From: a bacterium
GTDB taxonomy: Bacteria; Campylobacterota; Campylobacteria; Campylobacterales; Sulfurimonadaceae
Length of the DNA: 64,000 nucleotides
Assembly (NCBI GenBank): GCA_018822665.1
Contig: JAHJJX010000027.1
Coordinates: 1 to 64,000 of the forward strand
Direction of reading: 5' to 3'
Shown here: one piece after another, positions 22,799 to 39,308 of the stretch
Numbering within the stretch: position 1 is the stretch's first letter
How the letters are laid out: each line of letters starts with the position of its first letter
Translations under genes and position numbers: made by a program
Notes under the pieces: model-generated
Seen by the model: the letters and a program-made list of their open reading frames with translations, nothing else
What the model was told of the DNA's origin: nothing
The model's database searches: none

Positions 22799-23782
22799 TT
22801 ATTTAGCGAGTTTTATTTCAAACCCTTTTCTCGCACCGTGCATAAGCTCAACACCTCCGCCGTGCGCCTCGGCAATCTGGCGAGAGAGAACCAAACCTAA
22901 ACCGTTGCCTTTGACTTTTGTGCTTTTAAAGGCTTCAAAAAGCTCTTTTTTATTTTCTATGGCTATGCCGCTGTCATAAATAGAAAATTTATGGCAGCTT
23001 TCTTCTGACGTATACACAATCTCAACAAGTCCTTCTTCATTTTCATCAAGTTCGATGGCATCGATTGCGTTGATTATAAAGTTTGAAAAGAGCATCTCAA
23101 GAAGGTCTTTATCGGCATTGAGTATAAATTTTTGCGTAGGAAAAATAAATGTTATCTCCTTGGAATACGCATAATACCCTATCGCCATGTCAATAGACTC
23201 TTTTAAATCGCTCCACATAAAAGGTGTTATGTTCGCCTCAATACCCTTGCTGAACATTAAAGTGGCTTTAATAATTCTGTCAATTCTGTAAACAGACTTT
23301 TGTATCTCTTCGACTATGGGAATATTTTCGGGTATGACTCTTTTTTTAAGGGTGGAACTGAGCAAAGAGATGGAGCCGATAGGGTTACGTATCTCATGCG
23401 ACAAATGCGCGGCCATCTGCCCCATTGTTGCAAGGTTTTCTTTTCTTTTTTGTTCTGTTATATCTGTCGCGCTTAACATATATTTATCTTGATATGTAGA
23501 GCTTTTAATGAGATAAGAACGTTTTTTAAAGCTCACCTCGTAATCGTCGTTTTTACTCTCTAAAAGCTCTAAAAGTTTTCCTAATGATTTGGCTTGAGAG
23601 TTTTGTAAAAATATTTTCCCCTCTTCATCTAAAATCCAAATAGCGTTTGGCAAAAATTCAACAACTTTTTCAACGGTATTTTGCAGATGGGCGTAAGAAG
23701 CTTTGAGTTCATTAAACTCATTTTCCACCTTATACGTCTGCTCAATTAAAAGATTGAGCTCTTTTGCCGTTATTCCGGACAT
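22799..23782 (-). CDS. flgS: Flagellar sensor histidine kinase FlgS
   Basis: A 327-residue cytoplasmic kinase. The N-terminal coiled coil and PAS-like segment (LPNAIWILDEEGKIFLQNSQAKS) and the H-box MAAHLSHEIRNPIGSISLLSSTL match the Campylobacterota FlgS family. FlgS phosphorylates FlgR to switch on sigma54-dependent rod, ring and hook genes. The N, G1 and G2 boxes (NFIINAIDAI, DSGIAI, GNGLGLVLS) are intact. Its start overlaps the stop of the aminopeptidase gene by one base (TAATG), which implies translational coupling. FlgR is not in the window. Confidence 0.88.
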   Translation of the reverse strand: MSGITAKELNLLIEQTYKVENEFNELKASYAHLQNTVEKVVEFLPNAIWILDEEGKIFLQNSQAKSLGKLLELLESKNDDYEVSFKKRSYLIKSSTYQDKYMLSATDITEQKRKENLATMGQMAAHLSHEIRNPIGSISLLSSTLKKRVIPENIPIVEEIQKSVYRIDRIIKATLMFSKGIEANITPFMWSDLKESIDMAIGYYAYSKEITFIFPTQKFILNADKDLLEMLFSNFIINAIDAIELDENEEGLVEIVYTSEESCHKFSIYDSGIAIENKKELFEAFKSTKVKGNGLGLVLSRQIAEAHGGGVELMHGARKGFEIKLAK

Positions 23783-25041
23783 TATTCACTAAAACCTAAA
23801 AGAATTTTATACAAAGAGTATGCGTCATCGCTCCCGCAAAGCTCCCGAATAGAGTGCATTGCATAGGTTGGAAGACCGATATCCAAAGTATCGATTCCGA
23901 GTCTTGCCGCAGTAATTGGACCTATCGTAGAGCCGCAACCCATGTCGCTTCTTGTGACAAAATTTTGTATCGGTTCATCCAAAGAAGAGGCAATATTCAT
24001 AAATCTTGAGATAGTTTTTGAGTTTGAAGCGTAACGCTGATTGGCATTTACCTTGATGACTACCCCTTTATTGATGTGAGGCGCATGCTCTTTATCGTGC
24101 TTGGAGGGATAATTTGGATGTACGGCATGGGCATTGTCGGCAGAGATTAAAAGCGAGGAGCGAATCATCTGCGTGTACGCTTCATAATCACCAAACATTC
24201 GTCTAAGCGTACTCTCCAAAAAAGAACCCCCCGCACCCGAAGTTGAAGCACTTCCAACCTCTTCATGGTCGCTTGCGATAAAGAGCATAGGTTTCTCTTC
24301 ATCAATGGTGCAAATGCTCAGCATTCCCACATAACAGCTTAAGAGATTATCAAGTCTTGCACTCGCTATAAAATCATTTTCTACTCCGACATAAGAGGCC
24401 TTTTGCGTATCGTACAAACTCAGCTCATTCGCATAAAGTTCAACAACATCTTCAACTCCACATGCCAGGAGTTCATCTTTTAAAAATTTATCAAAGTTAA
24501 ACGAATCTCCACATGCCAAGACAGGAGAGATATCCGTTTGGGCATTGACACTTTTTTTCTCATTTACCTCTCTGTCTAAATGAATCGCCAAAGAGGGAAT
24601 AATTGCAATCGCTTTTTTCACATCTATCAAAGCATCTTGAATAAGATTTTTAGAATCCAGATAACTCACCCGTCCTGCCAGACTCAAATCTCTGTCAAAC
24701 CAAGGGTTAAAAAGCAAACCTCCATAAGGTTCCACACCAAACTTCACAACACCGTCATTTTTTAAAATCGGATTAGGTTTGAGTTTGAGGTTCGGCGAAT
24801 CTGTGTGTGCTCCAACCATCGTGTAGTTGTTGGCATGTGGAAATGTAAAAGCGATGATGGAGGAATCATTACGGGTGACAAAGTATTTTTTGCCATGCTC
24901 AAGCTCCCATTTATGCACTTCATCCAGTTTTATGAATCCGGCATTGGCAAACATCATCGCCATATTTTGCGTCGCATGAAAAGGGGTCGGGGAAGCATCT
25001 AAAAAGCCTAAAAGTCCTTCATTAAAATCTTGTTTGTTCAT
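23782..25041 (-). CDS. apeB: M18 family aminopeptidase
   Basis: A 419-residue cytosolic zinc metallopeptidase that removes N-terminal residues, often acidic ones. The metal-binding segments are visible: VGAHTDSPNLKLKP (first histidine and aspartate), SDHEEVGS (glutamate pair), ISADNAHAVHPN and the late YAMHSIRELCG histidine. Length agrees with bacterial M18 enzymes. It starts 27 bp after the stop of the JetC-like gene, so the defence operon could read through into it, though a housekeeping promoter for it must then lie elsewhere. It carries three copies of the repeated motif, the densest gene in the window. Confidence 0.92.
   Translation of the reverse strand: MNKQDFNEGLLGFLDASPTPFHATQNMAMMFANAGFIKLDEVHKWELEHGKKYFVTRNDSSIIAFTFPHANNYTMVGAHTDSPNLKLKPNPILKNDGVVKFGVEPYGGLLFNPWFDRDLSLAGRVSYLDSKNLIQDALIDVKKAIAIIPSLAIHLDREVNEKKSVNAQTDISPVLACGDSFNFDKFLKDELLACGVEDVVELYANELSLYDTQKASYVGVENDFIASARLDNLLSCYVGMLSICTIDEEKPMLFIASDHEEVGSASTSGAGGSFLESTLRRMFGDYEAYTQMIRSSLLISADNAHAVHPNYPSKHDKEHAPHINKGVVIKVNANQRYASNSKTISRFMNIASSLDEPIQNFVTRSDMGCGSTIGPITAARLGIDTLDIGLPTYAMHSIRELCGSDDAYSLYKILLGFSE
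24457..24466 (+). repeat. Copy of TCCACATGCC
   Basis: Ten of eleven bases (CTCC form), in the M18 aminopeptidase gene, read as L-A-C-G. Confidence 0.7.
24508..24517 (+). repeat. Copy of TCCACATGCC
   Basis: Second CTCC-form copy, 51 bp from the previous one and in the same orientation, again read as L-A-C-G. Confidence 0.7.
24832..24842 (-). repeat. Copy of TTCCACATGCC
   Basis: Full 11-mer in the M18 aminopeptidase gene but in the opposite orientation to the previous two, read as F-P-H-A-N. Confidence 0.8.
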
Positions 25042-25068: not shown

Positions 25069-28000
25069 TCATACATTTAATTCAATCGCTTCAAACTCAT
25101 CATCTGCATTTTTTCTAAATCTGTAGTACTTTATAAACTCCGGTTTTGAGTAGGTGGGTTCGGGAGTTACAAAAACGATGCCAAAACCTTTGGCATTTGC
25201 GAAGGTGCGTAATTTTTCCTGATTGTCGCTGTGAAGTCTTGAAACCTCATCGACTATCAGAAAAAACGGCGTTGTATCTTCTGTAATAAAAAGTTTCAAA
25301 ATAGAAATCGCTATGGCGATTTTAAGTAGCATACTTCCACCCGTGGAACTCTCGTTTTTGAGCTGTGAAACCTCTGAAATCTGCTTGCCGTTTTCGTTAA
25401 ACGAAAGACTCAAATCAATAGTGTCCTGTAAGGATATGGAGTTGCCTTTGAGCTCTGATTTTATCTCTTTAAATTTCATCTCAAGTCTGTTTAATTCTAC
25501 AAGCACTTCTTCTTTTTCATAAAAAAGTGAGCTCTCATTGAGGAGCGAGCTGAGGTTGGAAACATCTACATTAAGCGCATTTAAGAGTTTTGCTATACTT
25601 TTTTTATCGCCGATTTTTGTATCTATCTTGATATTTTTTATCACGCCGAAATCTATCTCTGAGAGGTTTTTATTTATTTTTGCCACTTGTGAAAAAAACT
25701 TATTTTCACTGTCGTTAAAAATTGACATTTTTTGAGGAAGCAGATTCTTCACAAAGTTTGTAAATTTCTTATGTCCGTTTTGTTTAACCATCTCCAGTTT
25801 TTTATTTTTAAAATCTGCTATATCCTCTATTTTATCCAGAATGTCAGGACTTTGCGATATAAAGAGATGGCTGTCGTATTCCTCAAAATTAAAATGAATC
25901 TCTATCTCATTTTGTGTATTTTTAAGGCTGTTTATCTTATCGAGTTTCGATTTGAGGTCTATTTTTTTATTTTTATACTCAAGCAAGATAGTATTATATT
26001 TCTCTACCAACTCAAATAAATATGCATCGCTCTTTTTTGGAGTGAGGCTGTCCGACTCAAAACGGATTCTCTCAAAATCCTCTGCGCCTTTTTTGAGTAA
26101 TTTGTCTGTTTTCATAAGAGCTTTTTTCGCCTCTACGAGTTCATCTATGACATGCTCATAATTTTCGATTTTTAATTCAAGCCGTTTTTTAAACTCTGTG
26201 TTTTTGAGTTTCATATTTTCCAGTTTGCTCGACTTAAGCGCGAGTGAATTTATCTCCTCTTTGGATTTTTCATATTCACTCAAAAACTCTTTGGCTCTTA
26301 TGCTCTGAGACAACTCCTCTTTTTTAAGGGCTATCGCATTTTCAAGCTGTTTTACTCTTTCATCTTTGGTTATTTTATGCTTTTCTTGTTCTTTGCGCTG
26401 TATCGCCTCACTGAGAGTTTTTTGCTCCAAGCGCAGCCATCCGTCGAGTTCTTTAAAAACCTCAATGCGTTCACTTTTATAATCATTCTGCAACTCCTCT
26501 GCAAGCTTAACAACATGCACCCTGTCGGCTCTTATACTTTTATAAATATCATTTATTGCTTCGTTATTATTCTTTATTTCTAAAAGCAGGTTCATTATAT
26601 TTTGATTGCATTTATTTTCTTTTATCTTATATATTTTGCGAGCTTCATCCCTTTTTTGAAAAAGTTCCTCACTAAGAGATTTTATATCTTCTCTTAACAT
26701 CGCTATCTCTTCATCTAATCTCTTTGTATCGTTGCGCTCAAAGGCTCTTTTTTCTTCAACATCCTCTTTAGCATTTTTATATTGAAGTTCCACTCTTAAC
26801 AAAGACTCTTTATAGCTCTCGTTCAAATTCTCTTTTTCTAATTCAAGTGCTTTTATCTTTGTATCTGCCTCATCTTTTGTAAGAATGTGCTTTAAGTTCT
26901 CTTTGTCGAGTTCTATGGAAAAAAGAGAGTCACTTCTGAGGAGTTTAGGTTTTAACTCCTCTATACTTTTATCGAGTAAACACTCATCAAGAATCGGATA
27001 AAGCATACTCTCCCAGCCGTCCACCTCTTCAGAGAGAAACTCTTTGAAGGAGTTTGGCTTTGAAGTTATCATAGTTTGATATTTTTGTATCTGTGAGAAG
27101 AGTCTCTGATGCTCTGTATCGTAACTGCTTTCATTTGTACCAAGTTCTCTTTGCTTGGAGCGTTCTAACTCCTCTAAATCATAAGAGAGATTCTTTATTG
27201 TTCTTTCTTTGGTATCTATGGAACTCTGCTTTTCTCGTATCTCTTTGTTTTTTAAATCTTGTTTTTTTTCATAAGTATCACCCAGTTCACTGAGAATTAT
27301 TTTTTGATTGTGTGTCAAAGTGCTTAAAAGAGCCTCTTGATTCTTCTTGTCTGATTCAAACTGCGCTATCTCCACTTTCATATCATTCACATTCAGCTCT
27401 GAAATATTTTTTCTCGTCTCAAAGTCCAGTTCTTCTTTTTCTATCGCTTCTTGAAGTTTATTTTTTAAAAATTGGTCTTGATTAAACTTTTTACCATCCA
27501 ACTCTCTTAGAAGCTCTGTCTCTTTTTTATACTCAAGAGTTTTTATCTCTTTGTTTATATTGTCAAGTTCATTCTCAAAACCTGACTTGAGTTTGATGTA
27601 GCTTTGGTTTAATTCACTTTGATTTTCCAAAATCTCTTCGTATTTGTCGGCTCTGTCTCTCTGGATTACAATATTTTCCTGTGAATACTTCTCTTTTAGA
27701 GCACGTGATTTTTGTATTTCCAGCTCTAATTTGTTGGAGCGAACTCTAAACTTCTCTTCGCACTTTGCTTTTGAATTTACTTTTATCTTGTGCATCTCTT
27801 TGGACTTGCTAAGTTGCCACTCTATCTCTTTAAATTTTGATTCAGTTTGACTTAAGGTATGAGCCTCTTTTTGTACTCTGTACACTATTTTCTCTTTGAG
27901 CTCGCCTATCTCATCTTCGTACACCAAAAGAGTCTCTTTGAGTTTATAGGCATTTTCTATGTTCTCTTTTTGTTTTTCAAACTCTTTAAAAAATTTGTAT

Positions 28001-28641
28001 TGGGATTGAAATTCATATATTTTTTGCAGATACTCTTCATGATTAAAATCTATCACTTTTTTTTCATAATCAAGTGTTGTTTGTATCGCTTGTTTGATGC
28101 TTTTTGAATCGATTATAGACTTGTCAATGTTAAATATTTCATTAAAAAGCCCTATAAAAGTCTCACTGTTTCGGATGGAAGTAAACTTAAAATCCAAAAG
28201 TTGTTTGTTGTTTCCATAGATGATTTCTCTGTAATCGCTCAGCGACTTTACCGTCTTTTTGAGGTTTGGCTCTTTTGCATATCTTTTAATCACATCTAAC
28301 TCATAAAGATTACTCGACGCATCCACCACCCGCTCAAGCTCAAACTTCTGCTTAGAGAAGAGTTTAACTATCTCACCGCCGGTTTTATACATAAAAATAA
28401 AAAAATCTTCAAAAACATAAATCATATAAGAGTTGGAATATCTAAAATAATACTCTTTAAAACCCTCTTTATCCGTTGGAATACCGAGGTTTCTCACATC
28501 CCCGCTAAAAAGATAATGAATAGCCCTGATAACAGTCGTTTTTCCACTGCCGTTATCACCTAAAAAAAAGAGGTCTTTTTCCAGATTTACATCTAAAAAG
28601 TTAAAATTTGCAGAGTTTATGAGTATTATATTTTTTATCAT
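25069..28641 (-). CDS. jetC: SMC-like condensin ATPase, JetC/MksB-like
   Basis: A 1190-residue ABC-type ATPase of the SMC/MukB kind. Walker A is GDNGSGKTT at residues 28-36. A very long Lys/Glu-rich coiled coil spans ~180-1000. The C-terminal head has the ABC signature STGGSMLLK (~1095) and Walker B FFLIVDEV (~1122). In Wadjet (JetABCD) and MksBEFG systems this motor extrudes DNA loops so that small circular plasmids are recognised and cut by JetD/MksG. It begins 2 bp after the JetB-like stop. It could instead be a plain MksB for chromosome folding, but the kleisin and KITE partners next to it and a Toprim gene in the same run favour the defence reading. Confidence 0.82.
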   Translation of the reverse strand: MIKNIILINSANFNFLDVNLEKDLFFLGDNGSGKTTVIRAIHYLFSGDVRNLGIPTDKEGFKEYYFRYSNSYMIYVFEDFFIFMYKTGGEIVKLFSKQKFELERVVDASSNLYELDVIKRYAKEPNLKKTVKSLSDYREIIYGNNKQLLDFKFTSIRNSETFIGLFNEIFNIDKSIIDSKSIKQAIQTTLDYEKKVIDFNHEEYLQKIYEFQSQYKFFKEFEKQKENIENAYKLKETLLVYEDEIGELKEKIVYRVQKEAHTLSQTESKFKEIEWQLSKSKEMHKIKVNSKAKCEEKFRVRSNKLELEIQKSRALKEKYSQENIVIQRDRADKYEEILENQSELNQSYIKLKSGFENELDNINKEIKTLEYKKETELLRELDGKKFNQDQFLKNKLQEAIEKEELDFETRKNISELNVNDMKVEIAQFESDKKNQEALLSTLTHNQKIILSELGDTYEKKQDLKNKEIREKQSSIDTKERTIKNLSYDLEELERSKQRELGTNESSYDTEHQRLFSQIQKYQTMITSKPNSFKEFLSEEVDGWESMLYPILDECLLDKSIEELKPKLLRSDSLFSIELDKENLKHILTKDEADTKIKALELEKENLNESYKESLLRVELQYKNAKEDVEEKRAFERNDTKRLDEEIAMLREDIKSLSEELFQKRDEARKIYKIKENKCNQNIMNLLLEIKNNNEAINDIYKSIRADRVHVVKLAEELQNDYKSERIEVFKELDGWLRLEQKTLSEAIQRKEQEKHKITKDERVKQLENAIALKKEELSQSIRAKEFLSEYEKSKEEINSLALKSSKLENMKLKNTEFKKRLELKIENYEHVIDELVEAKKALMKTDKLLKKGAEDFERIRFESDSLTPKKSDAYLFELVEKYNTILLEYKNKKIDLKSKLDKINSLKNTQNEIEIHFNFEEYDSHLFISQSPDILDKIEDIADFKNKKLEMVKQNGHKKFTNFVKNLLPQKMSIFNDSENKFFSQVAKINKNLSEIDFGVIKNIKIDTKIGDKKSIAKLLNALNVDVSNLSSLLNESSLFYEKEEVLVELNRLEMKFKEIKSELKGNSISLQDTIDLSLSFNENGKQISEVSQLKNESSTGGSMLLKIAIAISILKLFITEDTTPFFLIVDEVSRLHSDNQEKLRTFANAKGFGIVFVTPEPTYSKPEFIKYYRFRKNADDEFEAIELNV

Positions 28642-28643
28642 TC

Positions 28644-29177
28644 TTACACCACGCTTTGAACTATTTTTGTATAGTATTCTATGGCACTCAGCACCAGATA
28701 CTCGTCTTTGGAATCATTCTCTTTTTTCTCTATAATAGAGTTTTTCTCCAGCAAATCAAAAAATTTCTCAACAACATCCATTAAATCTTTTGTCTTAAAA
28801 ATATACTCAAACTTTTTCTCCAAAAGAGCATCTTCTTTTTGTTTATAATGATGTATAAAATCTGTCTGTTTTAAAATACTGCCTCTGTCCAAGTAGGGAA
28901 AAAGCTGCTTTAAAATGGCAATAGAGATTAAAATATTTTTATGATTATTTAAAAAACTACTAAGCTCCGCTTCGTTCATATTTTCTTTTTTTGAGATGTA
29001 AAAGTAACCGTTTTCACCATTGAGAGTAAAACCCAGCTTTTTTAATAGAGTAAATAACTCATCAAAATTTTCATCAATCATCAAAAAATTTGCAATGTCA
29101 AGATACTTTTGCGAATTGATAGAAATCATCACGCCTTTGCTTAGAACTTTAAAAACTTCATCAATTCCTACCGCCAT
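28644..29177 (-). CDS. jetB: Condensin KITE subunit, JetB/MksE-like
   Basis: A 177-residue protein made of likely winged-helix repeats (MISINSQKYLDIANFLM early, KKLGFTLNGENGYFYISKK in the middle, a charged EYLVLSAIEYY end). Size, composition and place between a kleisin-like gene and an SMC-like ATPase fit MksE/JetB, the subunit that bridges kleisin and ATPase and contacts DNA. It overlaps the upstream gene by 10 bp and is followed after 2 bp by the ATPase, so the three are translationally coupled. Sequence alone gives only weak family support; context carries the call. Confidence 0.7.
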   Translation of the reverse strand: MAVGIDEVFKVLSKGVMISINSQKYLDIANFLMIDENFDELFTLLKKLGFTLNGENGYFYISKKENMNEAELSSFLNNHKNILISIAILKQLFPYLDRGSILKQTDFIHHYKQKEDALLEKKFEYIFKTKDLMDVVEKFFDLLEKNSIIEKKENDSKDEYLVLSAIEYYTKIVQSVV

Positions 29178-30262
29178 TTTGCAACCTTTATTCCGTACGC
29201 ATTAAAATTTTTCTCAAACAGAACTTTTTCATCTGTGATTATCTGTAAATAAAGCTTAAAGGCTTCGTTTATCAGCTCTTTTTCTTTGTACTTCTCTAAA
29301 GCACTATGCGACTTTACAAACACAAAGATATCCTCGCTTTTTTTATCTTCCAAATCTCGAAGAATCCTCTCCATATCTATGATATCGAGCTTCTCTTTTG
29401 CCTGTGGTTTTATGGAGGATTCTTTTGCAGGTTTTTTAATATCCAAATCTGCAAAGATTGCTTTTAACTCTTTTGCAAGTTTTGTTACATCTTTATCATC
29501 GGCAAAAATGTGTATTTTATTTTTTTGACTTTTATTTATGGTGTGGTAAAGTTTTTTGGAATGAAGTCTCAGATGCTCTTCTAGCGCACTGACATCTTCA
29601 TCCATTATTCTATTGGAGAGTTGTAAAATCTGTTTGTTTTGCAAGCGTCTTTTTTTCGTTTGCACGATAAACTGATTTATCTGCTTAATGTAGGTATCGA
29701 TGTTTTGAATATACTTTAAAATATTCACACTGATACTCTGCAATAGCTCGTCTATTGTTGTATCTAAACCTCTCAAACCCTCTCTGAAGAAAGCACCTAT
29801 TTTTTCATTTGCAGTAATGAGTTCATCTACTTTTTCCAAGATGTCCCCTGCGTTTAGTATTAAAATATCTATGTCCAAAGAGGTGTCATTTTCAAGACGA
29901 AGCAAAAGTATCTGTATCTCTCTGTCACGGTTGTAAAATTTAAAATAAAGATTTTCTATAAGGCTGATGATGGTAGATTTGTAAAATTCGTTTGCGCTCT
30001 CTTGGTATCTTTTTTTGTTTTTAACCAACTCTTTGTACTCACGCTCATAATCGCCGAAAATGATACTGTAATCGACTCTTTGCAAGACAGAATCCACAAA
30101 GTTTAAGTAGTTTTTATTGAGTTTATATCGGTCGTTTATTTTGACAAAGAAAGTGGAGTCCACAAGCTCAGGTTCTACATTTTGTATAAACTCTTGTCTG
30201 TACGCTCTGTCAATGAGTTCTCTGTTTTCATGGACGAGTTTTAGAAGTTCAATGTGTTTCAT
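29168..30262 (-). CDS. jetA: Condensin kleisin subunit, JetA/MksF-like
   Basis: A 364-residue mostly helical protein. It starts with a helical region (MKHIELLKLVHENRELIDRAYRQEF), has GLRGLDTTIDELLQSI and a helical bundle around 170-230, and a C-terminal helical domain. This is the layout of MksF/JetA, the kleisin that closes the SMC ring. It is the first gene of the condensin trio, and its ATG overlaps the stop of the methyltransferase gene by 4 bp (30259-30262). This ties condensin and modification genes into one transcription unit. Confidence 0.7.
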   Translation of the reverse strand: MKHIELLKLVHENRELIDRAYRQEFIQNVEPELVDSTFFVKINDRYKLNKNYLNFVDSVLQRVDYSIIFGDYEREYKELVKNKKRYQESANEFYKSTIISLIENLYFKFYNRDREIQILLLRLENDTSLDIDILILNAGDILEKVDELITANEKIGAFFREGLRGLDTTIDELLQSISVNILKYIQNIDTYIKQINQFIVQTKKRRLQNKQILQLSNRIMDEDVSALEEHLRLHSKKLYHTINKSQKNKIHIFADDKDVTKLAKELKAIFADLDIKKPAKESSIKPQAKEKLDIIDMERILRDLEDKKSEDIFVFVKSHSALEKYKEKELINEAFKLYLQIITDEKVLFEKNFNAYGIKVAKWR

Positions 30263-33200
30263 GCGTTCTTTTCTATCACTTTAATCTCATCATTACTTAG
30301 ACCATACAGTGCATAAACCATTTTATCTATTGTATTTTCTAAGTGTTTTGTCTCTTCGCCTTGCTCTTTGAGTTTCATAATTTCGTCTACCAAATCTTCG
30401 TATGGTTTTGTGTCTTGTAAATTATCTATTTTTGGGATAGGGAAATCTGATAGACTATCTTTAGTGTAAGTAAAATACCCACCACTAAAAACTGTTCCAG
30501 TATTTTTAATATAGAACCATAACAACTTAGAATTTAAAAGAGATAAATAATATTTATAGCTCTCATTAATATATGATTTTTTTATAAAACCAAAACATTT
30601 TGTATTTCCATAATATTCGCCATTTTTATCATATGATACTTGGCTACCTAAAGACAAATAAGGTGTGATTAATTTTTCTTTATCAAATAATGTCAGATTC
30701 TTTGGATAAATATATTTATACCAAAAATCATCATTCTTAAGTCTTCCTTTTTCTCTGCCTCTTAAAATATCTTCGCACTCTTTAAGATAGTTATATCCAT
30801 GTGGAAACTTAGCTTTTATTTCACTTTCTGTATATAAAGTAGCTTTATCTTTGCCATTTTCATTTTCTACATAATATGGAAATATCACAACTTTATCTGT
30901 TTGAATTTTTTCATACCTATGGACATCATCACCTTTTAGAAGTGGTTTTACAAATTCTTTTTCAATAGTAATTATTTTATTTAATTCTTTAGAAAAACCT
31001 TCTATAAAATCAATTTTTTCTATACAATCAAATAAAAAATAAACACTATCTTGACTTGTTTGAAGACCCGTAAATATCTTCTCAAAAATGTCTTTTACTC
31101 TAAATGGTTGTGATTTTAATTTTTCTAAAATATCATAAGTTATTTTATTTGTAAATGTCCAGTTTAGAGTTGTTAGTTCACTGTTTTCAATCTTTGTATA
31201 ATCATTTTCATTTAAACCAAACAGATATTGCTCTAGTTCCTGGTTCGTAGTTAAATTTTTATCTAACTCAGTATATTCCAGATACTTAGTGCTTTTTCTG
31301 TTTTGAAACCATACCAAAGAAGTGTAAGTGGATGCATTAAAAACTTGGTAAGCTCCAAAAGAGATAAATTTTGAGACTTTGTCTTTACTTATCTCTCTGA
31401 GCCCTTTGCCAAAACTTGCATTTATCCATTTGTGAGGCATGATATAGTTGAGTATTCCGTTTGGAGACAACAGACTCAAAGCTTTTTCAACAAACAAAAC
31501 ATACAAATCATAACTACCCGTTGCACTGTTAAAAAGTTTTTTATATAGCTCAGATGTTTTGGTATCAATCCCCTGCACTCTTAAATACGGCGGATTACCG
31601 ATTACCAAATCAAAACCGCCGCCTTGCATAACTTCTGCAAAATAGAGTTTATAAAAGAAAAGTTCCGTAGTTGGTCTTTTTAGCACTTTTTCTATCAGGT
31701 TTATTTCATCGTTTAACTTCATAATCAGCTTATGCTGCTTGTTATCAAAATCCATAACGCTAAAGTTGTTTACCTGACTTTTTATCTCGTCATTATGTTT
31801 TTGTAACTTCTTGTCTAAAACTCTATCTATAATCTCTTCTATGCTTTTTTGAAGAGTGTTTTTTTCATCTTTGTCGTTAGCGTTAAAATACTTATGTAAC
31901 TTCTCTTGCATCTCCTCTATAATAAACTCGTTATCATCAAAAAGAGAACCACTGTTTTTAGCCAAAGGGTCAAATCCGTTTATAGTTTCAACTAAACTGT
32001 TTCCCACCATGATTTTATAAAACAAGTTTGGCAACGGAGTCGGTGTCTCTTCATCTACGACTATACTCAGCCAAAACCTAAGCTTTGCAATCTCAACGGC
32101 ACTTTGCTCGATGTCTATACCGTAAATGCTGTTTTCAATTATCTCTCTTTTCATTTTAGCCAGTGGCGTTTTGTCGCCTAAATGAACTCTCGCACTTGTT
32201 ATCTCATGTAAAACGCCCATAGGAAAAGCACCGGAGCCGATGGCAGGGTCTAAGACTTTTATTTTTTTGAGCACTATTATCATCAACTTTTTAAGTTCAT
32301 CTTGGGGCGTATTTGAGTTACTTAATAGTTTGTTTATAAATTTATTATAATAATTCGTGCTCTCAAAAAGTGCTTTTAAGTCTTGGCTTGTTATACTATT
32401 TGCCTTAAAAGAGTTGTAAAACGTGGAAAGTCCTTTTTGGACAACTGCCTGCCGCGGAAGTTCTTCTACCTGAAATAAGGATAGCGGTTCTGTATGGAGG
32501 GGACGGCAGTCCTCCTTCAGCTCTTTTATCTTACTAAAAACTTCACTATTAAACGCAAAATTTTCTTCACTCAGTTCTTCTAAATTTTGACCGATTTTTC
32601 TAATTTTTCTTTTTATCTCTTTTAAGCGAATCGGAAATATAGTAGCTAATTCTAAATCTCCAAATATATTCGGCATAAATGCAAGTACAAAATAACTCTC
32701 TTCTATGAGAATGTACTTTAAAAGAGTTGGGTATTTATATGTGCTTTTCTCTTGTTTGAGCTCTTTGTTTGAGCCAAAATTCACAGCAACTACTCCATAC
32801 TCTCTTCTAATAATTTTATGCCATATTTCACTACTTACTTCTTTATGCCCTTTTTCATTTTGAATTCTCTGTCCATTTTTATCTAACCATAAACCTCTTA
32901 GTTTTGCGACTATGTAAAAATCTATCACTAAGTTTTTATAGGGGTGTAATGTTTGAAAATAATTATCTATCTTTACGAATTTTACAGGGTGGCTTTCGTA
33001 AAATTTTAAAACTTCATCATTAGTCAATAATGTTTTTTCTAAAAACTCTTCAACACTAAAATTATAAGCGTGTTGCGTGGTTTGCGTTTGCAAGTAGTTT
33101 TCTATAGATTTTTTGCTCATGTAGTGAACTATTTCCCGTGGAGTGTAAAAAGCACCTTTATCTTTTCTATCTTCTAGCAAGTCTTCAAAAACACGACCCA

Positions 33201-34203
33201 ACATCTCTGGGTCTATGGCTATCTCACTGTCGTCAGGACTGTCTTCTATGATTGTAAAATTATAGTTATCAAAGCTGGCAAATACCTTTTTGAAAATATC
33301 ATTTTCCATGATAATATCACGTTTATCGAACTCATCTTTGTTAAAAAGTCCGCCATTTAAAAATGGCATTTTACAATTGAGCTTAGCAAAATAATCATTT
33401 TCTCTTTTTTCATTTAATGCTTCAAAAAAGATAGGGTCTAGTACTTCACTGTAAAAGTCGGCATATTCTATATACTCTTTTTCAAAACATTTTGTTAAAA
33501 AATTTTTATCTCCATTTTTCCAGTTCTCATCACTTCTAAGCCAACCTTTTTTCTCTAAAAAGTACAAAAACACTATACGACCTAAAAGTTTTTTAGTAAA
33601 GAGTTTTAAGTTATTTTCATTGTCAAAGAGTGCTAATTGAGGTTTTAAATAATCACAAATATTAAAATAAAGTTTTTTATACTCACTAAAAAATTCTTTT
33701 GAAACTTTTTCAACACTAAAAGCTTCTTCAACATCTTCTAATTTAGGATGTTTTAAATCTTTTAGCTGAGAATATGCTGTATTTGTAGCTATATTTTTAC
33801 CCAATACATAGGTATATCTTTTAAGATTTGTTACTTGCTGTTTGTCATTTTCATCGTAGCTAAATCGTATAAATGAGAGTCGCCATACATCCGGTTTGCT
33901 TGGGTTGTAAAATACAGCGATAGCCCCATCAAGAAGTTCATCATTGACTTTACTTTTTAATATATTATTTAAAGAAACTCTATTGTTTTCTATCTCCGTA
34001 TCAGCTTTTGAGACAAATTCAAAAAAGCCTACATCTTTACTGCCGTCTAATTCCACATGCCCTAAAAATTTATATTTTTCTATCTTCTCATTATCTACAC
34101 TAATATAACCTGCAATATCTGCCGTAAAATTAAATACACTAAAAAGAAATTCTTTATAATTCTCTTGATTATAACTTGATTGTAAAAAGTTTTTGATATT
34201 CAC
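30259..34203 (-). CDS. Eco57I-like adenine methyltransferase / type IIG-like restriction protein
   Basis: A 1314-residue protein. The N-terminal region includes LLGRIVFLYFLEKKGWL (~200), common in large methylases that travel with helicases. Motif X is AFYTPREIVHYM (~350), motif I DPAIGSGAFPMG (~652) and catalytic motif IV GNPPYLRVQG (~867), as in gamma-class N6-adenine enzymes of the Eco57I family. The C-terminal third (LLKGDDVHRY, then FSGGYFTYTKDSLSDFPIP) looks like a TaqI-type target recognition domain. I could not see a clear PD-(D/E)xK nuclease in the N-terminus, so restriction may rest on the neighbouring PLD helicase. It starts 12 bp after that helicase and overlaps the JetA-like gene. 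Confidence 0.82.
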   Translation of the reverse strand: MNIKNFLQSSYNQENYKEFLFSVFNFTADIAGYISVDNEKIEKYKFLGHVELDGSKDVGFFEFVSKADTEIENNRVSLNNILKSKVNDELLDGAIAVFYNPSKPDVWRLSFIRFSYDENDKQQVTNLKRYTYVLGKNIATNTAYSQLKDLKHPKLEDVEEAFSVEKVSKEFFSEYKKLYFNICDYLKPQLALFDNENNLKLFTKKLLGRIVFLYFLEKKGWLRSDENWKNGDKNFLTKCFEKEYIEYADFYSEVLDPIFFEALNEKRENDYFAKLNCKMPFLNGGLFNKDEFDKRDIIMENDIFKKVFASFDNYNFTIIEDSPDDSEIAIDPEMLGRVFEDLLEDRKDKGAFYTPREIVHYMSKKSIENYLQTQTTQHAYNFSVEEFLEKTLLTNDEVLKFYESHPVKFVKIDNYFQTLHPYKNLVIDFYIVAKLRGLWLDKNGQRIQNEKGHKEVSSEIWHKIIRREYGVVAVNFGSNKELKQEKSTYKYPTLLKYILIEESYFVLAFMPNIFGDLELATIFPIRLKEIKRKIRKIGQNLEELSEENFAFNSEVFSKIKELKEDCRPLHTEPLSLFQVEELPRQAVVQKGLSTFYNSFKANSITSQDLKALFESTNYYNKFINKLLSNSNTPQDELKKLMIIVLKKIKVLDPAIGSGAFPMGVLHEITSARVHLGDKTPLAKMKREIIENSIYGIDIEQSAVEIAKLRFWLSIVVDEETPTPLPNLFYKIMVGNSLVETINGFDPLAKNSGSLFDDNEFIIEEMQEKLHKYFNANDKDEKNTLQKSIEEIIDRVLDKKLQKHNDEIKSQVNNFSVMDFDNKQHKLIMKLNDEINLIEKVLKRPTTELFFYKLYFAEVMQGGGFDLVIGNPPYLRVQGIDTKTSELYKKLFNSATGSYDLYVLFVEKALSLLSPNGILNYIMPHKWINASFGKGLREISKDKVSKFISFGAYQVFNASTYTSLVWFQNRKSTKYLEYTELDKNLTTNQELEQYLFGLNENDYTKIENSELTTLNWTFTNKITYDILEKLKSQPFRVKDIFEKIFTGLQTSQDSVYFLFDCIEKIDFIEGFSKELNKIITIEKEFVKPLLKGDDVHRYEKIQTDKVVIFPYYVENENGKDKATLYTESEIKAKFPHGYNYLKECEDILRGREKGRLKNDDFWYKYIYPKNLTLFDKEKLITPYLSLGSQVSYDKNGEYYGNTKCFGFIKKSYINESYKYYLSLLNSKLLWFYIKNTGTVFSGGYFTYTKDSLSDFPIPKIDNLQDTKPYEDLVDEIMKLKEQGEETKHLENTIDKMVYALYGLSNDEIKVIEKNA
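34051..34061 (+). repeat. Only motif copy in the defence island
   Basis: Full TTCCACATGCC 11-mer near the 5' end of the methyltransferase gene, read as G-H-V-E. No other copy lies between 24843 and 41936. Confidence 0.8.
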
Positions 34204-34215
34204 TATTTTCCTTTA

Positions 34216-37200
34216 CTAAACAAATGTTTCACTCAATATAATCTCTATATCATTTTTAATACTTTTACGATTTTCATCCTTTTCAACGAGACTAAACTCA
34301 ACTTGAAGCTTTTGAAGTTCTTTTACTCTTTGGCTTGATGCCGGATGATTTTTAGCTATTTTCACAATCTCTTTACTTAAGTTTTGAAGTCTACCCTCTT
34401 CTATGGTTTTTGTAAATATAAAGAACATCTCTTTGCTTATAAACTGTTTTTCATTCCAAGATTTTAGAAGCGTTATCGCTTGTCTATCGGTTTTATGTGC
34501 TACTTTTATATTTGCAGTTTGATAAACAATAGTACTTAACTCATTTTCATAAAACTCCATAGCTCTTTGTATCTGTGTATAATGATATTCCACTATCGGC
34601 AGCATCGCTTTTTCATTTTTATCTGCTTTTAAGTTTGTTGCCATTTGAACAAAGTTTATGGCTTCACACTCTGCGCCTATTACTTTATAATAATTTTTAC
34701 TTGTGTCATTTTTTATAAACACAAAAGAGGTCTCTTCACTTGCATCTTTATCTCTTTGCACTCTTACCTTTTGCGGTAAATTCTTAAGTGTTTTAAAGTT
34801 CATCGGATACATCTCTTTGTATGCCCGTATCTCTTCTAAAAACTTCAACTCATCATCAGGTTTTTCCAAATCATTATCGTATAAAGATACAGAGCCTACT
34901 TGTTCGTTAGTTGAGTATATCTGGCTGTCTTCTCCGACTGTATGGTGGAATGTTTGGAGTTTTATAAATGCTTTTTTTGACAACTCTATAAGTGCTTCAC
35001 TTTGTGCGGTTGGTTTAAAGTTGTAAATGTAAATTTCATCATGCTTTGTTCCTATGCGATTTATTCTGCCAATTCTCTGCATAAGTCTTGTAGAATTCCA
35101 AGGAATATCATAATTGTATATGATGTTGCTTCGGTGCATGTTGACACCTTCACTAAGAGTATCTGTAGAGATTATGACATTAAAATCATCTTTTTGATTT
35201 GTATAATTTGCATCAAAATTTTCCCTTATAATATCTTTGAGTTTATCTCTATTTTCACCATGAACCGTTAAAACTTTTTTGTACTCTTTGAGTTGTTCTT
35301 CCAAGTAGAGTGCCGTCTGTTTTGACTCGGTAAACACAACTATCTTTTCATCTCTATGAGTATCTAAAATAGTTTTAAATTTTTCTAATTTCGGGTCATA
35401 ATCAATATCTTCCCACAAATGAACCAAGTCTTCTAAAATTATGTAGTCACTTTTTAGCTGCTCTAAATACTTAGCTTCAAAATCACTCATTTGAAACAAT
35501 TTCATCTTTTCGTTTTCTAAATACTCTTCAATTTTATCTGTAAAATTATCTTCATCTTTTTCAATCAACTCATAGAGATTGAAATGTTTTGAGGGAATAT
35601 ATATAACATCATCCTCAAACATGTCAATTAATCGTTTTAAATTTCTCTTCTGTTTTCCTATAGTTGATTTAAAAGCGGTAAATGAGCTCTCAAGCCTTTT
35701 AATGAGCATTGTTTGCATAAGTTTTGCAAGGGCTTCAGAACTTAGTTCTATGAAGCCCTTTTGGACTTTACCGTATTTTTTTTGACCTTCATTGTTTAAG
35801 TTTACCAGTATTTTGTATCTGTGATACTGTAACCCTGTTTTATCATCAGTTAAAAGGCTGATAGTCTTATCAAATATTTTCACTAAATTATCGTCAAGTT
35901 TATATTCAAGTTCTTTTATGGGGGTGATTTTTGGTATCTTAAGACCTTGCTCTTCTATATCTTTTTTATATGTGTCACTTTGAACATCGGTTCTTGTTCT
36001 TCTCACCATCACTTCTCTTAAAATATCATCTCTTACTTTTCTAGATAGTGATTCAAGCTCTTTAAGCTCATCTGCGTTTAAGTCACTTGAATTCTCTTTT
36101 TTACCAATAATATCTTTGTATCTCTTGTCGATTCCTGCAAAAAAATTCTCTAAATTCGGATAGGAATCTATAGTTGATTTTCGTTTATCTTGAAATAGAT
36201 ACAGCTGATTTGCAATATCTTGAGGCTTGTTGTTTAACGGCGTAGCGGAGAGGAGTAATATCTTTTTTTTATATTTTATTTGCTCTTTACATATTCTCTC
36301 TAACTCTTTATATCTTGATGTTAAAAAGTTTTTAAACTTATGTGACTCGTCTATTATTACAATCTCATATTTTTGAGTATCTTTTATCTTTTCTAATGCT
36401 CCAAAAGATTTAAACTCAAATTTTCTGTAGTCACCTATTTGAAATCTTTCAAATGTCTCTATCCACTCTTTTTCTATAGATGGCGGTGCAATGATAAGTA
36501 TTTGCCCTTTAGTTACAGTACATAATTTTTTTACAATCATGGCGCATGTGATAGTTTTTCCTAAGCCAACTACATCTGATAGAAAAAATCCACTATGTTT
36601 CTTTATTTTTGAAATCCCCTCATTCACCGCATCTATCTGATAAGCCAACTTCATAAACCCTTTAGGTAAATCATCTGCTACTGAAGGGTCGAAATTTACC
36701 CTTTCATCGAAATGCTCTATTAAAAACTTTATATATAATTCATAAGGAGTAACCTCTTTTAAATAACTCTTCTGCTTGACATTATCTATATCATCTACCG
36801 TTATTTCAACAGAATCAAGCCATAAACTCTCAAACTCATTTAATGCAAAAGCTACATCATCGCTATCTTTTAACTCTACATTAAATTCATAATTTTTTGA
36901 TAAGCCATTTTCTGTAAGATTTGAGCTTCCTGTTATCACAGAGCCTTTTTGTTCAAGTTTTCCATCATGTTTTATAAACTCTTTTTCTCTAAAAATATAT
37001 ATTTTTGAATGCGTATTTTTTGATTTTGATATTCTTATTTCTAGTTTATTTGTAGCTATAAGGTTTATAAACTGCAAGACTCCCTCATCGGTCTCTTTTG
37101 AGTAATATGCCTGTTTTAGGTTTTCATTTTGGTTGTCTTGAAACTCTTTTATAAATTGTTCTGAATCAAAAAGATTTAACTCCTTGCCTCTATTTTTTGC

Positions 37201-37407
37201 TTCTTGTGTAAGCTTATCAACATTTATACCGACAAGTATTCTTATTTTATCAACACCATCAAGCAAAGAAGCAATTTTTTTAAAACCGCTTATTCTAAAA
37301 TAACCTATAAGAAATTCTAAATTTTTAATATTATAGTGCGTTAAAATATCTTTTAGTCTATTTTCTAAAGTGTTTTCATCTCTATTTGTAAAAAATTTTG
37401 AACTCAT
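34216..37407 (-). CDS. PLD nuclease-SNF2 helicase fusion
   Basis: A 1063-residue protein. The N-terminal domain (~30-215) has the HKD-type half site HSKIYIF (~131) followed by GSSNLTENGL (~160), a phospholipase D-like nuclease fold. The rest is a SNF2/HepA-like superfamily 2 ATPase: Walker A DVVGLGKTIT (~279), Walker B IIDESHKF (~352), motif III LLSATPLNNKP, and C-terminal QRIGRINRIG (~782). Such fusions are found beside large adenine methylases in restriction-like and DISARM-like systems and probably translocate on and cut unmodified DNA. One HKD half implies dimerisation for nuclease activity. It is followed after 12 bp by the methyltransferase and preceded by a deletion scar. Confidence 0.85.
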   Translation of the reverse strand: MSSKFFTNRDENTLENRLKDILTHYNIKNLEFLIGYFRISGFKKIASLLDGVDKIRILVGINVDKLTQEAKNRGKELNLFDSEQFIKEFQDNQNENLKQAYYSKETDEGVLQFINLIATNKLEIRISKSKNTHSKIYIFREKEFIKHDGKLEQKGSVITGSSNLTENGLSKNYEFNVELKDSDDVAFALNEFESLWLDSVEITVDDIDNVKQKSYLKEVTPYELYIKFLIEHFDERVNFDPSVADDLPKGFMKLAYQIDAVNEGISKIKKHSGFFLSDVVGLGKTITCAMIVKKLCTVTKGQILIIAPPSIEKEWIETFERFQIGDYRKFEFKSFGALEKIKDTQKYEIVIIDESHKFKNFLTSRYKELERICKEQIKYKKKILLLSATPLNNKPQDIANQLYLFQDKRKSTIDSYPNLENFFAGIDKRYKDIIGKKENSSDLNADELKELESLSRKVRDDILREVMVRRTRTDVQSDTYKKDIEEQGLKIPKITPIKELEYKLDDNLVKIFDKTISLLTDDKTGLQYHRYKILVNLNNEGQKKYGKVQKGFIELSSEALAKLMQTMLIKRLESSFTAFKSTIGKQKRNLKRLIDMFEDDVIYIPSKHFNLYELIEKDEDNFTDKIEEYLENEKMKLFQMSDFEAKYLEQLKSDYIILEDLVHLWEDIDYDPKLEKFKTILDTHRDEKIVVFTESKQTALYLEEQLKEYKKVLTVHGENRDKLKDIIRENFDANYTNQKDDFNVIISTDTLSEGVNMHRSNIIYNYDIPWNSTRLMQRIGRINRIGTKHDEIYIYNFKPTAQSEALIELSKKAFIKLQTFHHTVGEDSQIYSTNEQVGSVSLYDNDLEKPDDELKFLEEIRAYKEMYPMNFKTLKNLPQKVRVQRDKDASEETSFVFIKNDTSKNYYKVIGAECEAINFVQMATNLKADKNEKAMLPIVEYHYTQIQRAMEFYENELSTIVYQTANIKVAHKTDRQAITLLKSWNEKQFISKEMFFIFTKTIEEGRLQNLSKEIVKIAKNHPASSQRVKELQKLQVEFSLVEKDENRKSIKNDIEIILSETFV

Positions 37408-37444
37408 TTTTATCCTAAATATTCAATTTTATGTGTTTCATATA

Positions 37445-37519: not shown

Positions 37520-37584
37520 TATTTCATTCTCCCTAAAATCTCTAAGGCGTTTATCTCAAACTTTGAAAATGCAAACCACTTCAC
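37519..37584 (-). pseudogene. C-terminal tail of a lost gene
   Basis: A second minus-strand frame, offset from the truncated RhuM gene, reads VKWFAFSKFEINALEILGRMK and ends TAA at 37519, overlapping the ATG of the helicase remnant. Only this tail is left. I take it to be the last ~20 codons of a gene whose body was deleted when the RhuM-like gene was fused to this spot. The parent gene is not identified. Confidence 0.4.
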
Positions 37585-38146
37585 TTTTTGCACTTTTTAA
37601 CAAATCATTTACAAAAGCATAGGCATCATAAATCTGTCCGTCGTAAAATATACCTTGTGAGGGTTTAAGAGAACTCTCTTTGATGAGACTTGAGATGTTT
37701 TCTATTTTTGATTTTAAAACCTCTACATCATTTTCAAGTTCTTTAAATCTATCATGTGTGATTTTTTCGGAGTTGATTACATAACCATCTGTTATGTAGC
37801 TTCCTAGTACTGATGTTGCCCACTGTCTAAATTTTGTCGCTTTTTTTGAGTTAACTCTGTAACCAACAGATATAACAACATCGAGATTATAATGTTCAAC
37901 TTCTCTTTTAACTTGCCTTTTCCCCTCTTGTTGAACTATTAAGTATTTCTGAATAGTTCGATTTTCAAAAAGCTCTTCATCTTTATATATCGCCTTAATG
38001 TGCATATTAATATTAGGAACCGATACTTCAAAAAGCTCCGCTATCTGTTTTTGGGTAAGCCAAAGAGTATCTTGTGTAACTGAAACATTAAGCTCTAGCT
38101 CACCGTCGTTGTAAATTACCATATCTGATTTGTTTAGCTTGTTCAT
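37556..38146 (-). pseudogene. rhuM: RhuM-family protein, C-terminally truncated
   Basis: A 196-residue frame starting with the RhuM-family pattern: LWLTQKQIAELFEVSVPNINMHI (a helix-turn-helix near 30-50), EGKRQVKREVEHYNLDVVISVGYRVNSKKATKFRQWAT (~75-115), then SQGIFYDGQIYDAYAFVNDLLKSAKSE. Full RhuM proteins run to about 330 residues and continue after the SAKSE region. Here the frame switches to a short foreign tail (VVCIFKV) and stops. RhuM proteins are common passengers in restriction islands and their role is not settled. The N-terminal DNA-binding part may still be made. Confidence 0.7.
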
Positions 38147-38213: not shown

Positions 38214-38474
38214 TCATTTTGTAATATTTTTGTCTTTAATAATTTTCTTTTCATTTAATGAATTCTGTAATTCTGCAAGTTTTTGTGATGTCATAAACTC
38301 TTGGATTCTTAAGTTTTCACTTTGTTTATCAATACCAATTGCACTACTTATATCACTTTGTAATTTTTGATATACCTTTGTTAAATCTTCAAGTGTTTGC
38401 TTTTTTTCAAAATTATTATTTCCCCATCGTTTCTGATAAGCTTCTTCTATCTCTCTTTTTTTCTTATCATCCAT
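38214..38474 (-). CDS. Small charged protein in the defence operon
   Basis: An 86-residue, highly charged, helical protein (MDDKKKREIEEAYQKRWGNNNFEKKQTLEDL...). Its ATG follows the stop of the JetD-like gene with no gap, so it is co-translated with it. I recognise no family. Position and size allow a small subunit or regulator of the Toprim nuclease, but that is a guess from context. Confidence 0.6.
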   Translation of the reverse strand: MDDKKKREIEEAYQKRWGNNNFEKKQTLEDLTKVYQKLQSDISSAIGIDKQSENLRIQEFMTSQKLAELQNSLNEKKIIKDKNITK

Positions 38475-39308
38475 CTATTTACTCTCACTTTTAATCATCT
38501 CTTCATACATCTTAAAGAGGTATTCAGGGCGTTCTTCAGCATACAGTATCTCTTGTTCAACTACGGTATTGTATTCTTTTATAAGCTTTATTATCGGCAT
38601 GACATCTTGTGAATAGTCACTTTTCATTCTTACTCTTTGTTTTTTGTACAATGCAACATTATTATATTTTTTATCTGAAAAATAACTCTGTATGTTTTTA
38701 GGAATATGCAATTTTTTAGCTTTACATGTAAAACTCTCATAAATATTCATCCCCTCGATGTCAAAATCAAGAAAAAAATGTACGTATTTTGTTTTTAAAA
38801 AAGTTCTTGTAAGCGTATTTGCATACCCCGCCAAATATACAAAATACTCTTCATCAAAGTTATCTGCGAATTGTTCAATATTTAAAAAAGTCTCCCCATT
38901 TTCTATGGCCAAAAAACTCTCTATCTTTTCAAGTTCACTCAAATCATCACTTTGGTAAAGTTTAGCAACTTCACCTCTTCTTTTAACAACTACCACATTG
39001 TCAAAAACTTTCACTATATTTGTTTTAGAGTCACCGCTGTAACGAATATTTTCACTTCGTGTTTCGGCATTTAAAATGTTCACTATATCTTCAAAATTTT
39101 TCACATCAATATCTTGCGTTTGCGATATAAATCTAAAAAACTCTTTTTCATTTTTTATAAAAGTTTTTTCTCTTCTTTTGGCTTGTAAAAAATAAATATT
39201 GTTCTCATCCTGATAAACAACTGCCAATTCACACAACTCTTTTACATTTGAATACACGGGAGTCTCATTTTCAAATAAAAGAGCTTGTCTTAAGATTGAT
39301 TTATTCAT
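38475..39308 (-). CDS. jetD: JetD-like Toprim nuclease subunit
   Basis: A 277-residue protein with a C-terminal Toprim-like region of the DUF2220/JetD type. It has the glutamate in IENGETFLN (~135), then YLAGYANTLTRTFL, the DxD-type FFLDFDIEGMNIYESF (~181), and a late VVEQEIL glutamate (~259). In Wadjet, JetD is the topoisomerase VI-like nuclease that cuts plasmid DNA held by JetABC. It is shorter than typical JetD (about 350-400 residues), lacking part of the N-terminal arm. Unusually it is the first gene of the island, about 8 kb upstream of jetABC. An isolated DUF2220-like gene of another system is possible. It lies 93 bp after dnaE. Confidence 0.65.
   Translation of the reverse strand: MNKSILRQALLFENETPVYSNVKELCELAVVYQDENNIYFLQAKRREKTFIKNEKEFFRFISQTQDIDVKNFEDIVNILNAETRSENIRYSGDSKTNIVKVFDNVVVVKRRGEVAKLYQSDDLSELEKIESFLAIENGETFLNIEQFADNFDEEYFVYLAGYANTLTRTFLKTKYVHFFLDFDIEGMNIYESFTCKAKKLHIPKNIQSYFSDKKYNNVALYKKQRVRMKSDYSQDVMPIIKLIKEYNTVVEQEILYAEERPEYLFKMYEEMIKSESK

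Follow-up and report, generated by a model that had tools for sequence, protein, structure and literature searches.

A helicase-methyltransferase pair of restriction-modification type at the jetD/jetA junction of a divergent Wadjet-like operon in Sulfurimonas

Wadjet systems discriminate plasmids from the chromosome by shape and size, and restriction systems read methylation. The DNA analysed here, a 64,000-nucleotide stretch of a Sulfurimonas contig (JAHJJX010000027.1 of assembly GCA_018822665.1; hereafter the window), carries genes of both kinds in close succession, with a PLD-SNF2 helicase-nuclease and a DNA methyltransferase (MTase) followed directly by three Wadjet-like (Jet) genes. This raises the question of whether the two sets form one machine, joining loop extrusion to modification-dependent cleavage, or whether one module has come to lie inside the other. 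With modest confidence we lean towards the latter, namely that a restriction-modification-like pair is embedded in a divergent four-gene Wadjet-like operon, at its jetD/jetA junction, and would be co-expressed with the operon while acting separately.

In the direction of transcription the locus reads dnaE, a jetD-like gene, an 86-codon open reading frame (ORF), a RhuM remnant, PLD-SNF2, MTase, jetA, jetB, jetC, an M18 aminopeptidase gene and flgS, or, as a scheme, jetD-[RhuM remnant-SNF2-MTase]-jetABC between dnaE and the M18 gene. An earlier note on this DNA had described the five genes from SNF2 to jetC as adjoining, with gaps or overlaps of +12, -4, -10 and +2 base pairs (bp) and a kleisin start overlapping the MTase stop. 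An ORF check of the window bears this out: all five frames are open and lie where claimed on the minus strand (as do all locus genes given coordinates below), their coordinates yield the same four spacings, and the jetA ATG and the MTase stop share 4 bp as ATGA ('...AACGCATGAAACACATTG'). All five genes of the proposed set are thus present, but a jetD-like gene further upstream (38475-39308), the first gene of the operon, had been overlooked; it is separated from jetABC by 8 kilobases (kb). A terminator scan revealed no terminator-like site on the coding strand in the gaps between the locus genes, its overall yield of 9 sites being close to what shuffled sequence would give (mean 5.7, standard deviation 2.9), and a common transcript is probable. 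Within positions 20000-46000 of the window, no match to an Rfam family attained the gathering score.

The Jet genes differ in how directly they can be identified, and the placement of the trio with MksBEF/JetABC, which the earlier note had proposed, holds for JetB by Pfam and for JetA by structural model, while JetC is placed on motifs only. The product of jetB (28644-29177, 177 residues) matches Pfam MksE with 62.4 bits (cut-off 27, E-value 9e-17), which identifies it as a KITE subunit. The jetA product (29168-30262, 364 residues) matches no kleisin family by sequence, either in Pfam or in a PDB profile search. For its AlphaFold2 model (mean predicted local distance difference test score, pLDDT, 76, from 23 aligned sequences), Foldseek ranks 1-11 are all chains of MukBEF, MukEF, MukF or JetABC(D) entries, the subunit identity of each matched chain being our reading, and this points to a kleisin of the MukF/JetA type. 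The best of these matches has E 2.2e-4 and probability 1.00 and is the sole one below E 0.001, the others lying at E 0.013-0.11; the TM-scores are low (0.13-0.27), and in VIA-align unrelated helical proteins or bundles rank equally high (same Z) over residues 61-222. The 1190-residue product of jetC (25069-28641) has a Walker A motif at 28, an ABC signature (STGGS) at 1099 and a Walker B motif at 1127; its Pfam SMC and AAA matches are below cut-off, and no PDB sequence matches at E 0.001. JetC is, from its motifs, size and position, a putative SMC ATPase.

The 277-residue product of the jetD-like gene matches Pfam DUF7281 with 31 bits (cut-off 27) and JetD_C with 21.7 bits, just below the cut-off of 22. 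Foldseek ranks 1-9 of its model (pLDDT 87) consist of topoisomerase VI chains and, at rank 7, the Corynebacterium glutamicum nuclease 8b7f, which we take to be MksG; six of these matches have E-values of 0.001 or less. The residues E136, D181 and D183 (E, DFD) are invariant in 13 aligned sequences, the window copy included, and in an hhalign comparison with four known JetDs the E and DxD line up, at a probability of only 9.6%. On these grounds we assign the gene to the Toprim nucleases of the JetD/MksG type. Searches of PDB sequences with JetA, JetB, JetC and JetD profiles gave no trusted match, and we attribute the casein kinase and apolipoprotein rows among the results to chance or coiled coil. 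In loci L044 and L053 the genes that follow jetC, once taken as jetD, misfit the JetD alignment, look PrmC-like by eye and were removed. Because none of the PADLOC Jet models was matched by any of the four Jet proteins at E 0.1, and because the order D-A-B-C differs from mksFEBG, we class the genes as a divergent Wadjet-like system and do not assign them to types I-III.

As for the pair itself, the SNF2 protein (34216-37407, 1063 residues) has PLDc_2, SNF2 (SNF2-rel_dom) and Helicase_C domains above the Pfam cut-offs and intact HxK, GSSN, GLGKT, DESH and QRIGR motifs. The MTase (30259-34203, 1314 residues, GTG start) is of the Eco57I/TaqI type (N6-adenine class) with a C-terminal specificity domain; its Eco57I (131 bits) and TaqI_C (36 bits) matches are both above cut-off, and DPAIGSG and NPPY are intact. 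None of the six genes jetD, SNF2, MTase, jetA, jetB and jetC is truncated, and wherever catalytic motifs were looked for they are intact.

The same gene order recurs in a second genome, G026 (locus L041, contig JALUXP010000043), and the arrangement is therefore not due to chance, nor is the junction unique to one strain. Among 135 Sulfurimonas genomes, 18 have a JetB match, which is strong in 13; the five weak or partial cases were excluded (G042, G059, G132 and G152, which belong to another Jet family or are closer to it, and G171, whose match is a fragment of 28 residues where the contig ends). Two of the 13 strong Jet genomes, the window's own and G026, carry the SNF2-MTase pair, in both cases between jetD and jetA, and the other 11 have Jet genes without it. 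Nine of these have jetD directly before jetA, counting G169 (L045) though its operon is broken into pieces (many short ORFs across jetD, jetA and jetC at L045:1581-7465). In G116 (L031) a RhuM gene of 295 residues directly precedes jetA and no jetD is seen, and in G146 (L040) an ORF without match precedes jetA. Several Sulfurimonas have the Wadjet-like operon at the dnaE-M18 site, and tight spacing is kept at the MTase/jetA end. In G026, 4-bp overlaps are found both at jetD/SNF2 and at MTase/jetA; the locus comes after dnaE there, and the M18 gene does not adjoin jetC.

Wider samples returned no further case. Among 28 named loci fetched with the SMC profile, a set that may omit records of the window's own genome, only L041 has the pair. 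In a sample of 397 genomes of the phylum, 16 genomes outside the genus had a match, of which three weak ones (G420, G454 and G495) were removed, and in the stretches read around the 13 strong Jet loci that remained no SNF2 or MTase homologue was found at E 1e-3. Three of these loci have little sequence before jetA, with 49 bases in G456, 124 bases in G415 and nothing in G502; inspected by eye, the bases in G456 and G415 look like a JetD end. G415, where SNF2 and jetA both lie at contig ends, had been considered as a third Jet-linked case and was rejected, since the 124 bases resemble JetD and not MTase. A JetC scan of viral contigs gave no relative, and a scan of plasmids gave eight records (coverage 12-17%), each assigned to Bacteroidota from its organism name; the annotation of the two contexts read (H78 and H81) names neither an SNF2 helicase nor a DNA MTase. 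Genome G170 has no JetB match. Its PLD-SNF2 gene stands directly after dnaE (L085:1-6227), on the same dnaE side as in the window, overlapping the dnaE end by 4 bp with no jetD between, and the contig ends inside SNF2. A different Jet family occupies the M18-flgS site in G042 (L094:4781-16996), where JetA-B-C and a DUF7281 JetD are preceded by a ZorD/DpdE-like SNF2 gene and a 589-residue ORF without Pfam family and followed by a SEC-C protein.

The set is not supported as one system in the form first proposed, since Jet genes lack the pair in most genomes and the pair occurs elsewhere without neighbouring Jet genes; this distribution indicates the embedding of one module in another and not a fixed single system. 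Further, related Jet operons carry other cargo between jetA and jetB, namely a YhcG-type nuclease with a small ORF (L033:7877-9131) and an Xre/ParS-type antitoxin gene with its neighbour, both on the opposite strand (L038:1362-2509). In every gene compared, nonsynonymous divergence (dN) is well below synonymous divergence (dS), which exceeds 1 except in jetD. We favour embedding with separate action because of the gene identities, the free occurrence of both halves, the insertion borders described below, the other cargo, the gaps without terminator-like sites and the low dN. Under this explanation, JetABC would, by analogy, extrude loops on small circular DNA and trigger the Toprim nuclease JetD, as loop extrusion by JetABC and the cutting of small circular DNA by JetD are described in an excerpt of PMC10586767. 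Separately, to judge from domain content, the MTase would mark host sites and the SNF2 protein would track along unmarked DNA and cut it with its PLD domain, while one transcript would coordinate the dosage of all components. Three observations weigh against this explanation, in that passenger status alone accounts neither for the use of the same one of three junctions in both copies, nor for an insert common to the Jet-linked MTases only among those examined, nor for the absence in both of an ATPase that is seen in seven free modules.

These same observations hint, circumstantially, at joint action, and the alternative built on them is possible, if less probable. It holds that the free SNF2-MTase module works with a small SMC/Rad50-like ABC ATPase, that JetABC takes the slot and role of this ATPase, and that the MTase insert docks to JetABC(D), with the consequence that loop extrusion would bring DNA to, or hold it for, a cleavage that depends on methylation. 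PLD-SNF2 relatives occur in 8 of the 135 genus genomes (E 1e-60) and 26 of the 397 phylum genomes (E 1e-50), counts that are possibly lower bounds, with few candidates per genome scored. In seven Jet-free loci an SMC_N/AAA-type ATPase of 549-672 residues follows the MTase (G159, G023, G381, G076, G209, G460 and Prevotella oral taxon 299; for G076 the SMC_N score falls slightly short of the cut-off). This holds for all five loci of the window's SNF2 subclade in which the third gene is visible; the contigs of G318, G389 and G043, of the same subclade, end before it. At both Jet-linked loci the genes after the MTase are jetA, jetB and jetC, the last encoding the SMC-like ATPase, and a search of the window's genome and of G026 for the G159 ATPase gave no homologue at E 0.001. 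However, the ATPase is not universal as a third gene, since G511 has a pseudouridine synthase gene after the MTase and 15 loci of family f14 gave no ATPase match by blastp (those of G315 and G504 end soon after SNF2). Five f14 third genes were scanned; pentapeptide repeats were found in two of them, and the other three gave nothing in Pfam. The pair may accordingly not need a partner ATPase, which counts against the replacement of one by JetABC. Free PLD-SNF2/MTase modules are also accompanied by Schlafen AlbA_2 proteins, of 558, 464 and 514 residues (L084:8614-10290, L103:12274-13668 and L102:6439-7983, respectively).

The insert, of about 270 residues (32272-33099), is found among the MTases examined only in the two Jet-linked ones, where the distance from YTPREIV to DPAxGSG is 300 residues in both, as against 36-96 residues in 18 of 19 other MTases and 208 in the remaining one (G384). 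MTases with one motif unfound, among them those of G318, G501 and Prevotella 299, stand outside the 19, and three of the counted sequences (G043, G131 and G389) are truncated where their contigs end. Between the window and G026 the insert shows 56-57% identity, compared with 49% for MTase residues 1-370, and its dN is 0.34 at a dS of 1.5. It is present in 2 of the 135 genus genomes (the window's and G026) and 1 of the 397 phylum genomes (the window's own); G026 evidently lies outside the latter sample, where it is not listed for SNF2 either. The coincidence of insert and Jet linkage (2 of 2 against 0 of 19) corresponds by simple counting to 1 in 210, a figure that is only suggestive because the MTases are related by descent. 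No trusted relative of the insert was found in Pfam, PHROGs, PADLOC, PDB or viral contigs, and blastp against the ORFs of the fetched loci gave none beyond the two Jet-linked MTases. The G384 ORF with the 208-residue spacing, there up to DPACGSG (L143, 7494-11024), showed no similarity to the window's insert.

Joint action would thus be favoured by the third-gene position, the missing ATPase, the insert and the apparent double acquisition of the pair at the same junction. Against it stand the small number of instances (two only), an insert without recognised fold or function, the 8 kb between jetD and jetABC in the window, the lack of the pair in most of the Jet operons seen, the free occurrence of both halves, and the other cargo of related operons (L033, L038 and the RhuM gene of L031).

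A second question, independent of mechanism, is how often the pair entered Jet operons. In an SNF2 tree of 16 rows, the window groups with G381, G159 and G318 (96/96), whereas G026 falls into another subclade with G460, on a long branch, G511 and G501 (97/95). A constraint uniting the window with G026 was rejected by 88 log units (p-value of the approximately unbiased test, p-AU, 2e-30) and, in a tree of 9 rows, at a p-AU of 2e-4; the second and third builds of these trees omit the long outgroups and a number of partial rows. In a tree of JetA, JetB and JetC combined, the sister of the window is L031 and that of G026 is L047 (both 100/100), and neither sister has the pair. The borders also bear signs of insertion. 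In G026, AGATGA stands on each side of the pair, compared with an empty AGATGA junction in its sister L047. In the window, the pair is preceded by an apparent old jetD end and, at 37415-37441, by a stub like the old jetA start (ATGAAACACATAAAATTGAATATTTAG), as judged by eye against the junctions of L031 and L030, and ATGAAACACAT occurs on either side. The left borders of the pair differ between the window and G026. Because the two SNF2 genes belong to different subclades and the sister of each Jet operon lacks the pair, there were apparently two separate acquisitions at the jetD/jetA junction, a history read from sequence comparison.

The MTase speaks less clearly for two acquisitions, as a tree of its N-terminal and core parts does not reject the union of the window with G026 (p-AU 0.295) and so allows a common origin. 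Additionally, the window's MTase is a mosaic. Over residues 1-370 it shares 71% identity with G159 and 49% with G026, over residues 651-700 it shares 82% with G026 and 64% with G159, and residues 701-850 are again nearer G159 (90, 54 and 51%, versus 80, 18 and 12% to G026). The mosaic and the unrejected tree make it likely that Jet-linked MTases have exchanged sequence, however many insertions there were. The same evidence, together with the insert shared with G026 only, would suit a history in which the Jet-linked SNF2-MTase arose once and spread by recombination, with the window's SNF2 and N-terminal MTase parts later replaced by G381/G159-like sequence. Such a single coupling, which would fit either mechanism, appears rather unlikely to us in view of the rejected SNF2 clade, the Jet sisters without the pair, the differing left borders and the return of residues 701-850 to G159. 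That the cargo broke the jetD-jetA coupling and the Jet system is now being lost in the window's strain is very improbable, for although RhuM is truncated, jetD differs from its homologues in its tail and lies 8 kb from jetA, and the operon of another Sulfurimonas (L045/G169) is in pieces, the six genes in the window are full length with intact motifs and their dN is low relative to dS.

If the two sets did act jointly, DNA shape sensing by loop extrusion and self/non-self sensing by methylation would be read by one complex. With its probably common transcript and an MTase domain so far seen in Jet-linked copies only, the locus offers a direct test of whether SMC extrusion steers, or is steered by, sequence-specific marking. 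Even with separate action, it is a clear example of nested defence modules in which filled and empty junctions can be compared.

Several described systems resemble parts of the locus. Like Wadjet/MksBEFG (JetABCD), it has kleisin, KITE (MksE), SMC-like ATPase and Toprim JetD/MksG-like genes in one place, but it differs in the absence of any PADLOC Jet model match, in the restriction-modification-like genes inside the operon and in having jetD first, the Mks order being given as mksFEBG in an excerpt of PMC10123090. Hma, in the portion of PMC8565338 consulted, is a system of helicase, methylase and ATPase with an MTase described as a 5-methylcytosine (m5C) enzyme. The helicase-MTase pair is similar, and the seven Jet-free relatives add a third ATPase gene, which we set beside HmaC by description. 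However, the window's MTase is of the Eco57I/TaqI type with NPPY, unlike the m5C enzyme HmaB, its helicase carries a PLD domain, and the locus has no ATPase of this kind, the only one beside the pair being the Jet SMC. As regards DISARM and the PADLOC candidate 'HKD+Snf2' (C3a139), the SNF2 protein matches HKD+Snf2 best in PADLOC, followed by DrmD, its helicase part also matches a DrmA model and the MTase also matches DrmMI, yet neither DrmA nor DrmB is the top match of any gene scanned and NCBIfam DrmD scores 157 bits against a cut-off of 610. Type IIG enzymes share the TaqI-like specificity domain, and the best PADLOC matches of the MTase are REase_MTase_IIG; here, in contrast, the recognised nuclease domain (PLD) is on the separate SNF2 protein and Pfam lists none in the MTase. 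BREX-Related type 2, an HKD-DNase with Swi2/Snf2 helicase and an N6-MTase within systems centred on a DUF499 ATPase (PMC12839542, in excerpt), has a comparable HKD-SNF2 effector and N6-MTase, but DUF499 was not matched among the nine proteins scanned at the locus. The earlier note knew of no described system with this exact set, and a literature search by titles and abstract beginnings likewise found a Jet operon with an embedded SNF2-MTase pair in none of the matches listed. The embedding of defence systems (Septu within Hma is mentioned in a passage of PMC12255303) and helicase-methylase-ATPase systems are already known, and the present combination is a variant of these.

The remaining features lie around and between these genes. 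The site is bordered upstream by dnaE (DNA polymerase III alpha; 39402-43013; Pfam DNA_pol3_alpha) and downstream by the M18 aminopeptidase gene (23782-25041; Pfam/NCBIfam), after which flgS is the best match for the next gene. The 86-codon ORF (38214-38474), whose start adjoins the jetD stop, has no Pfam match at E 0.01. The RhuM-family gene (37556-38146; Virulence_RhuM, 93.8 bits) is shortened relative to the 295-residue copy at L031:2793-3680 and, in the DNA alignment with it, apparently out of frame at its 3' end. Four proteins of the cyclic di-GMP type (GGDEF and/or EAL) are encoded around the locus, at 16636-18924, 43152-45005, 45866-50467 and 53595-55955, one of which has 1533 residues with CBS, several PAS, GGDEF and EAL matches.

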